A DNA stretch of 37,619 bases from Bacteroidota bacterium (lineage in GTDB: Bacteria; Bacteroidota; Bacteroidia; B-17B0; Aurantibacillaceae): NCBI GenBank assembly GCA_016185125.1, contig JACPOC010000014.1:1-37619 (forward strand), in the 5' to 3' direction. This document shows positions 23,589 to 24,748 of this stretch, in pieces. A program made the translations under genes and the position numbers. The stretch's first letter is position 1. Each line of letters starts with the position of its first letter. The notes beneath the pieces are model-generated. The model was not told the DNA's origin. It did not search any database and worked only from the letters and a program-made list of their open reading frames with translations.

Positions 23589-23809
23589 GAAGCAAGCCTG
23601 TCAATCTAGTAGCGACCTTAGGAGCGTATCGAGAAGATTGCCCTAACCAGTTCTCGATACAATTTTTCCGCTATCGCTGCAAATTTACTCGAACTGACAA
23701 AAGGCTTGTCCCTTCGAGTAGCGACCATAGGAGCTTATCGAGAAGCTTGGCCTGAGCGGTTCTCGATACAATTTTTCCGCTATCGCTGCAAATTTACTCG
23801 AACTGACAA

Positions 23810-24239
23810 AAGGCTTGTCCCTTCGAGTAGCGACCATAGGAGCGTATCGAGAAGCTAACTATCTGCTATTTTTTGCTGAAATTCTTTTTTTTAGAAAGCT
23901 CCGGTAAAGCATCAAAATCACCATTAATTAAAGCTGTCTTTTTTGCTCTCGACCATTTTTTAATTTTCTTTTCAAATAATATAGCTTTTTCTACATCATT
24001 AAAATCAACATAAAAAACTAGTTTTAATGGCCTACGATTATAGGTGTAAGAGCCAATATTTGTGCCGTAACAATGTTCGTTAAAACGTCGTTCGAGGTTA
24101 TTGGTAATGCCGATGTAATAGGAGTTGTCACTACAATGAATTATATAAACAAAATAAGTTTTCAAAATATAAAGTTAATGTTTTTGCAGTTCTCGATACA
24201 ATTTTCCGCTATCGCTGCAAATTTACTCGAACTGACAAA
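23810..24239. mobile_element. Candidate mobile unit: GIY-YIG gene between inverted repeat halves
   Basis: Left end 23810-23855 is half B (ttcgagtagcga ... gtatcgagaag) and right end 24190-24237 is half A (ttctcgatac ... tactcgaactgaca), inverted relative to each other. The nuclease stop lies 11 bases inside the left end and its start 24 bases inside the right end, so little but the gene is enclosed. No target-site duplication was recognised because the flanks are further repeat copies. Calling it mobile is inference from the terminal-repeat-plus-nuclease layout. Confidence 0.45.
23866..24165 (-). CDS. GIY-YIG nuclease (UPF0213-like), inside the inverted-repeat array
   Basis: 99 residues, a single GIY-YIG domain with no DNA-binding extension. 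VYI (6-8) and YIG (17-19) form the GIY-YIG core, followed by the catalytic Arg region NNLERRFNEH (Arg26/Arg27, His31), and the metal-binding Glu65 in ILFEKKIKKWSRAKK. All active-site residues expected for the family are present, so it is probably an active single-strand nick or double-strand endonuclease. A Lys-rich tail (SKKKNFSKK) may help DNA binding. Short GIY-YIG proteins of this kind are common in Bacteroidota with largely unknown roles. The gene replaces the spacer in the third module of a repeat array, which makes it a candidate processing enzyme for those repeats, comparable in logic to the RAYT/REP pair of Proteobacteria. Confidence 0.9.
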   Translation of the reverse strand: MKTYFVYIIHCSDNSYYIGITNNLERRFNEHCYGTNIGSYTYNRRPLKLVFYVDFNDVEKAILFEKKIKKWSRAKKTALINGDFDALPELSKKKNFSKK

Positions 24240-24748
24240 TCCTGTTGTCACTTCGAGTAGGCGAAGAAGATTACCATATCGCCGTATCGAGGAGCTTCAT
24301 TGTGTCGTTCTCGATACAATTTTCCGCTATCGCTGCAAATTTACTCGAACTGACAAATCCCGTTGTCACTTCGAGTAGGCGAAGAAGATTACCATATCGC
24401 CGTATCGAGAAGCTTCATTGTGTCGTTCTCGATACAATTTTCCGCTATCGCTTCAAATTTACTCGAACTGACAAATCCTGTTGTCACTTCGAGTAGATTC
24501 GACCTTAGGAGCGTATCGAGAAAGGGGAAACCATACAGCTCTCGATACAATTTTCCGCTATCGCTTCAAATTTACTCGAGCTGACAAAAGGCTTGTCCCT
24601 TCGAGTAGCGACCTTAGGAGCGTATCGAGAAGATTGCCCCTAACTAGTTCTCGATACAATTTTTCCGCTATCGCTGCAAATTTACTCGAACTGACATTTA
24701 ATTTTCCTATTTTTAAGGCTTAATTAAAACGCATTCAATACTTACTAT

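Follow-up and report, generated by a model that had tools for sequence, protein, structure and literature searches.

The Ssn proteins of Neisseria are reportedly site-specific single-stranded nucleases of the GIY-YIG superfamily that are associated with NTS repeats, and are said to cut a hairpin in single-stranded DNA. The locus described here resembles the Ssn/NTS pair in combining a small single-domain GIY-YIG enzyme with a cognate repeat present in many copies, and locus L081 of N. gonorrhoeae carries GTCATTCCCGC...GCGGGAAT repeats on both flanks. It differs from Ssn/NTS in its repeats: these are REPs of Bacteroidota whose stems measure 5 nt, whose cores are conserved and which form tandem inverted arrays. 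The Ssn-type feature of a subfamily-specific cognate repeat beside the gene was found in the tree, Mantel and held-out tests given below.

REPs of the CGTC type occur in several phyla, apparently without a dedicated transposase, and form four families with 8–9 bp stems starting with AT and 4–5 nt loops, according to Di Nocera et al. (2013; PMC3733652). The repeats of the window (the whole stretch of 37,619 nucleotides analysed, contig C17 of a 3.34 Mb host genome in 59 contigs) resemble the REPs described there in their CGTC/TGTC head, their palindromic character and their arrangement as dimers: there are seven inverted pairs, and the pattern TGTCANTTCGAGN{3,40}TCGAGAA, a regular expression, has 14 matches in the host genome, eight of them in the window array. 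A backwards control of this pattern gave no match in any of the 40 genus genomes searched. Unlike those REPs, the repeat of the window combines a stem of 5 nt and a long loop with an adjoining nuclease gene; since it shares the head of the CGTC REPs and not their stem and loop lengths, it was not filed in any of the four families. Several hosts of CGTC REPs named in PMC3733652 recur in the tblastn matches (Azospirillum lipoferum, S. meliloti, N. aromaticivorans and Neisseria).

The RAYT/REPIN systems are similar in having an enzyme gene flanked by REPs that are presumed to be moved by the enzyme, together with dispersed non-autonomous copies. However, they combine a tyrosine transposase with a GTAG head (PMC3733652), whereas the window combines a GIY-YIG protein with TGTC, and RAYT membership was rejected because both the enzyme and the head are wrong. 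Among the literature matches listed, which include PMC3733652 and PMC12306157, the titles and abstract openings hold no statement of a pairing of GIY-YIG enzymes with REPs.

The repeat array and its nuclease gene

The array (23599–24696) lies between a 160-residue open reading frame without a Pfam match on the left and a carboxyl transferase gene on the other side. It consists of fourteen half-repeats, seven B halves on the plus strand and seven A halves on the minus strand, all fourteen with a TGTC head at the outer end. B1 (23599–23636, head at the left end) and A1 (23652–23699, head in the minus-strand reading) are followed by B2 (23707–23745) and A2 (23761–23808). B3 (23816–23854) adjoins the end of the nuclease gene (23866–24165, minus strand) and A3 (24191–24237) adjoins its start; beyond these lie B4 (24246–24294), A4 (24309–24355), B5 (24364–24412), A5 (24427–24473), B6 (24482–24523), A6 (24540–24586), B7 (24594–24632) and A7 (24649–24696), the head of which, GACA, closes the array. 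The B–A spacers are 14–16 nt, except for the third, which is 336 nt and contains the gene, and the A–B spacers are 7–8 nt. The initial annotation had described seven inverted B–A modules, opening with B and closing with A and carrying a nuclease gene in the third gap. Mapping of the seven B starts and seven A ends bears this out, including the end of the array at 24696, with two corrections: the start had been placed 6 nt early, at 23593, and the short gaps had been given as 13–16 nt.

The gene encodes a protein of 99 residues with a TTG start and a match to PF01541 (E = 4.7e-19; 68.9 bits against a Pfam cut-off of 22.6). The catalytic residues of the GIY-YIG superfamily are Tyr, Tyr, Arg, His and Glu; Y7, Y17-I-G19, R27, H31 and E65 of the window protein match the invariant columns of alignment A1 by eye, in agreement with the earlier description of a nuclease with all catalytic residues. 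The only solved structures matching the protein at E <= 1 are 1zg2 and 1ywl (4.4e-12 and 1.2e-7), UPF0213 GIY-YIG proteins that are named hypothetical proteins in the PDB. The NCBIfam model grpIintron_endo scored 20.5 bits on the window protein, below its cut-off of 56.

The same annotation had read the array as one gene-bearing module with six derived copies that lack the gene. Comparison of the half-repeats does not agree with this reading. B3 is 97% alike to B2 and B7 and 67–69% alike to B4 and B5, A3 is identical to A4 and is one base shorter than A1, A2 and A7, which are identical to one another; the halves beside the gene thus belong to different sub-arrays, and the gene sits between a left and a right sub-array. 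A gene-bearing module as the source of the six copies was rejected on these identities. The short A–B spacers, moreover, suit an A–B unit as well as the B–A unit that had been assumed.

In each half the TGTC head is unpaired, the stem is short and the inner core (GAG...TCGA) is conserved; the REPs are paired in inverted orientation. In the A half of the window the stem is AGTTC/GAACT (5 nt) and the loop exceeds 30 nt. The five of the six gene-less B–A units that were folded as single-stranded DNA gave z-scores of -2.6 to -4.7, and two lone halves folded poorly (-1.75 and +0.36). The sequence of the stem differs between loci with compensation. When arms were anchored by head and core only, with no requirement for pairing, at least four of the five pairs formed in 56 of 110 cases, against a shuffled mean of 10.5 and a maximum of 19, although these 110 cases are not independent because repeats within one array are related; 15 distinct perfect stems occur among them.

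Nuclease genes and repeats in relatives and other phyla

The PF01541 matches of the host genome are three short standalone genes and a 602-residue open reading frame taken for UvrC. All three standalone genes lie between repeats, each of another kind: the window array, hairpin repeats of a different sequence at L002, with two 182-nt copies that are 91% identical, and, at L003, an exact direct repeat of 39 nt that copies part of the adjoining tRNA-Arg(CCT). The L002 gene, the second REP-linked one of the host, lies upstream of an enolase-like gene, with repeats at 1247–1428, 1802–1983 and 1900–2081; those of L003 are at 1388–1426 and 1766–1804, and the second, partial tRNA copy is broken by a GC-rich palindrome.

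A PF01541 match is present in all 61 family genomes searched. Left and right flanks resembled each other with a score of at least 22, direct or inverted, at 20 of 32 loci covering both nuclease classes, whereas none of 35 shifted positions did (the highest value there being 21); 16 of the 32 loci exceeded the 99th percentile of cross-locus flank pairs (26.1 direct, 28.1 inverted; maximum 58). By reading, the flanks of many relatives' loci carry TGTC- or CGTC-headed REPs, and the repeats are dispersed through genomes. A strict search for an outward hairpin pair with a 6-nt stem found none at 31 loci of class R in the Bacteroidota and failed there because the stems are 5 nt or imperfect; it was replaced by a label-free alignment and by a noisier 5-nt version, which found such a pair at 6 of 33 loci against 0, 0, 1 and 0 of 31–32 in the controls. 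At L010, L015, L019, L020 and L024 the C-terminal tail of the REP-linked nuclease is encoded by the flanking repeat (e.g. ...NPSTSSG and ...PFDSAQGDKT). GIY-YIG genes at L012, L016, L021, L041 and other loci are only a few hundred bases away from the end of a contig, as would be the case if surrounding repeats break assemblies.

The closest homolog among the 40 genus genomes, that of G065 (75% identity), has the same type of repeat next to it, but its neighbouring genes are different. Its repeats are arranged opposite to those of the window, with the heads inward and facing the gene, which also speaks against a single module as the unit. The second closest homolog (L225, 64%) carries the predicted repeat type. 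Across these 40 genomes, those with a higher-scoring best homolog tend to have more repeats (Spearman 0.48, or 0.45 when the host genome is left out). With a cut-off of 96 bits, picked post hoc when the scores were already known, the 11 other genomes whose best homolog reaches it all carry the repeat (3–138 matches), and the remaining 28 have 0–18 matches (Mann–Whitney p = 0.0002).

The initial annotation had held that the association would be accidental if close relatives carried the repeats with no GIY-YIG gene, or the gene with no repeats around it. Each situation is partly found among the 39 other genomes. In six (G037, G024, G069, G071, G073 and G081) the pattern has 6–13 matches but the window protein finds no homolog at E <= 1e-6; another six (G061, G018, G044, G046, G050 and G077) have a homolog at that threshold and no match to the window pattern. 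In four of the latter, other repeat types adjoin the homolog (L011, L024/L074, L022 and L020); no labelled repeat was seen at L236 of G077 or at L247 of G061.

Gene order is broken at the window array when compared with the genus members examined: in these, the left neighbour and the carboxylase adjoin other genes. A search for an empty site upstream of the carboxylase found no array and 0–3 isolated motifs in up to 1200 nt in 29 relatives, drawn from the 38 other genomes with this gene, and downstream of the left neighbour 0–1 motifs were found in 700 nt in 11 relatives, drawn from the 35 other genomes with that gene. In these 11, the coordinates place the two neighbours on separate contigs or some 30 kb or more from each other, and the exact ends could not be read. 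In the REP-linked class, neither a target-site duplication nor an exact excision was seen.

For other phyla, 80 genome loci were taken as the best by similarity of at least 584 candidates and are not a random sample; loci near contig ends were lost from each flank test, five of the 80 in the outward-pair test. Of 75 loci spread over many phyla, 38 have an outward-facing GTC hairpin pair with a 6-nt stem; four shifted controls, which overlap each other, gave a single case each (of 73, 69, 73 and 68). The 7-nt version gave 37 of 75 against none in the controls, and the 5-nt version 42 of 76 against 1–7 of 69–73, its control rate being higher too. In terms of the nearest REPs with 7-nt stems, 31 of the 80 loci have an outward pair, seven an inward pair, 27 a mixed or one-sided arrangement and 15 none. 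Among the 80 genome loci and 12 plasmid loci taken together, the left flank matched the inverted right flank of its own locus with a score of at least 24 in 50 of 88 cases, compared with 31 of 503 cross pairs. On plasmids, tblastn gave 33 records, of which 12 loci were inspected; by reading, the gene has a nearby REP on each side at ten of the 12 (the two REPs of L087 differing from each other) but not at L085 and L088. The 6-nt detector found an outward pair at seven of the 12.

Gene and repeats can also occur, or be missing, as one block. In A. lipoferum 4B the gap between sufB and sufC is 617 bp and contains a REP dimer, a GIY-YIG gene and a second REP dimer, whereas the gap without the gene is 91 bp in A. 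ramasamyi, 87 bp in A. oryzae and 129 bp in Azospirillum sp. B510; the flanks are too diverged for the exact ends of the block to be read. The A. lipoferum region is matched by 122 plasmid records, with a coverage of at least 80% only by itself. In Shinella sp. PSBB067 the matching sufB–sufC stretch likewise contains a GIY-YIG gene (L307, 626–1150), with one REP on each side that is unlike those of Azospirillum in sequence; either this site was used twice or the presence is old and common.

Across loci, repeat and enzyme change together. In the Bacteroidota, a label-free comparison of 52 loci showed that similarity of the flanking repeats tracks similarity of the nucleases (Mantel r = 0.311, 0 of 1000 permutations as high), with -0.062 for control DNA 850 bp away; in other groups, the 80 genome loci and 12 plasmid loci gave r = 0.320 (0 of 500 permutations; control -0.003; 92 loci). 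Five repeat types were also placed on a protein tree built from 52 catalytic domains, each trimmed at residue 88; two of the subfamilies are the TATCGAG type and the GAAGCAAT type. Together with the unlabelled rows (8 of 52) they require 16 changes, against a shuffled mean of 33.7 and none of 200 shuffles as low, on a tree with few columns and many open forks; the five motifs were picked after inspection of the flanks, and the Mantel tests are free of them. From these analyses L048, L055, L061 and L223 were dropped as repeats of other loci and L004 as a gene taken for UvrC.

With the label rule fixed beforehand, repeat labels were then predicted for 23 held-out loci, comprising 20 new loci and L225, L247 and L248, which are absent from the tree and Mantel tests. 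A label could be given at 17, and in 12 of these it agrees with that of the nuclease nearest among those already known (the mean of the shuffles is 4.1, and none of 2000 reached 12); five labels were mismatched and six loci were unlabelled. L011, the label of which is weak (one motif), is the nearest neighbour of four of the eleven non-matching loci (L291, L292, L305 and L306). The association of nuclease and repeat is not accidental, and the coupling of enzyme and REP is well supported. Since enzymes and adjoining repeats change together in evolution, they very probably form one working pair. What survives of the initial interpretation is a GIY-YIG enzyme with its own repeats in a logic like that of RAYT/REP, as the pairing recurs and co-diversifies; its single ancestral module does not.

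A tRNA-linked sister clade

A further 21 nucleases are encoded on the same strand as a tRNA gene and no more than 400 nt downstream of it. At 16 of these loci (L009, L017, L034, L038, L039, L042, L046, L047, L056, L059, L060, L064, L066, L068, L070 and L076), 9–30 nt of the 3' region of the tRNA is repeated after the gene, 30 nt being the longest repeat searched for. In a FastTree analysis of 172 proteins the 21 fall on one side of a single branch (support 95), with 133 REP-linked or other-phylum rows on the other, although a further 18 rows, assigned to neither group, may be placed inside, and columns are few and branches long. A class-wide sample retrieved with one protein of this clade comprises 23 loci; by coordinates, 14 of these have a tRNA or tmRNA within about 200 nt, in 12 cases upstream on the same strand.

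One genome contains two copies of the tRNA-linked unit that are 93% identical over 684 nt (L038, 1739–2421; L039, 1789–2472). They sit at tRNA-Met(CAT) and tRNA-Arg(ACG), and their far ends match the local tRNA end (TGGGACCA versus TGGTACCA). A tmRNA gene is followed, after about 120 nt, by a homolog of the tRNA-linked class at L273 (1013–1379).

Alternative explanations and significance

The window gene is probably the dedicated nuclease of the surrounding REP family and would cut a hairpin in single-stranded DNA. That the cut is made in single-stranded DNA is probable in view of the covariation of the stems and of what is reported for Ssn, and the presence/absence pattern together with the change of location suggests that the enzyme may spread the REPs. 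In such a scheme the enzyme would recognize its own REP by head and hairpin, most likely in single-stranded form, and then cut. The resulting breaks at REPs could lead to growth of tandem arrays and to rearrangement, and occasionally to copying of the gene with its REPs into new sites. The gene would persist by travelling with its own substrate, and the REPs could outlast it as non-autonomous copies.

An accident, in which GIY-YIG genes and repeats merely co-occupy intergenic space, would account for the relatives that have repeats and no detected homolog and for those with a homolog and no window pattern, but it is highly improbable: matched controls are near zero where the real loci are not, the labels of held-out loci were predicted from the protein, which together led to its rejection, and the co-diversification tests, barring sampling artefacts, largely refute it. 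A different arrangement is that of a homing-type selfish gene, the nuclease of which cuts a pre-existing intergenic repeat and which is copied in by homologous repair, the repeats having another origin and function. The position of the gene at the junction of two sub-arrays, the variable arrangement of the repeats around it and the six relatives with repeats and no detected homolog speak for it. Against it stands the change of repeat sequence with enzyme subfamily across families and phyla; since a homing enzyme with a repeat as its target could co-diversify too, this only weakens such an origin, which is considered unlikely.

The enzyme could also be a domesticated regulator that cuts incoming single-stranded DNA at REPs and so tunes uptake or recombination, with no spreading of REPs. 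Such a role is said to have been proposed for Neisseria Ssn, and the association of gene and repeat extends to L081 of N. gonorrhoeae, but the patchy presence, the change of location and the block that is present or absent in Azospirillum have the appearance of a mobile element, and a purely regulatory role seems rather doubtful. A dedicated nuclease that cuts its own REPs remains the preferred reading of the window gene.

A broader proposal is made tentatively: small standalone GIY-YIG nucleases may be a general class of hairpin-guided mobile genes. One clade could then supply the dedicated enzyme that the CGTC/TGTC REP superfamily has been missing across bacteria ('REPtrons' lacking a transposase), and its sister clade could use the 3' ends of tRNA, perhaps also tmRNA, genes, which would be restored by duplication; in both, spread would proceed through cuts at hairpin-forming sites in single-stranded DNA. 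The tRNA-linked clade suggests a second kind of hairpin site served by the same enzyme fold. For the REPs themselves, repeat types are tied to nuclease subfamilies by a quantitative co-diversification test and by held-out prediction, and the maker or mover of CGTC-type REPs has therefore become testable with one small protein and one oligonucleotide.
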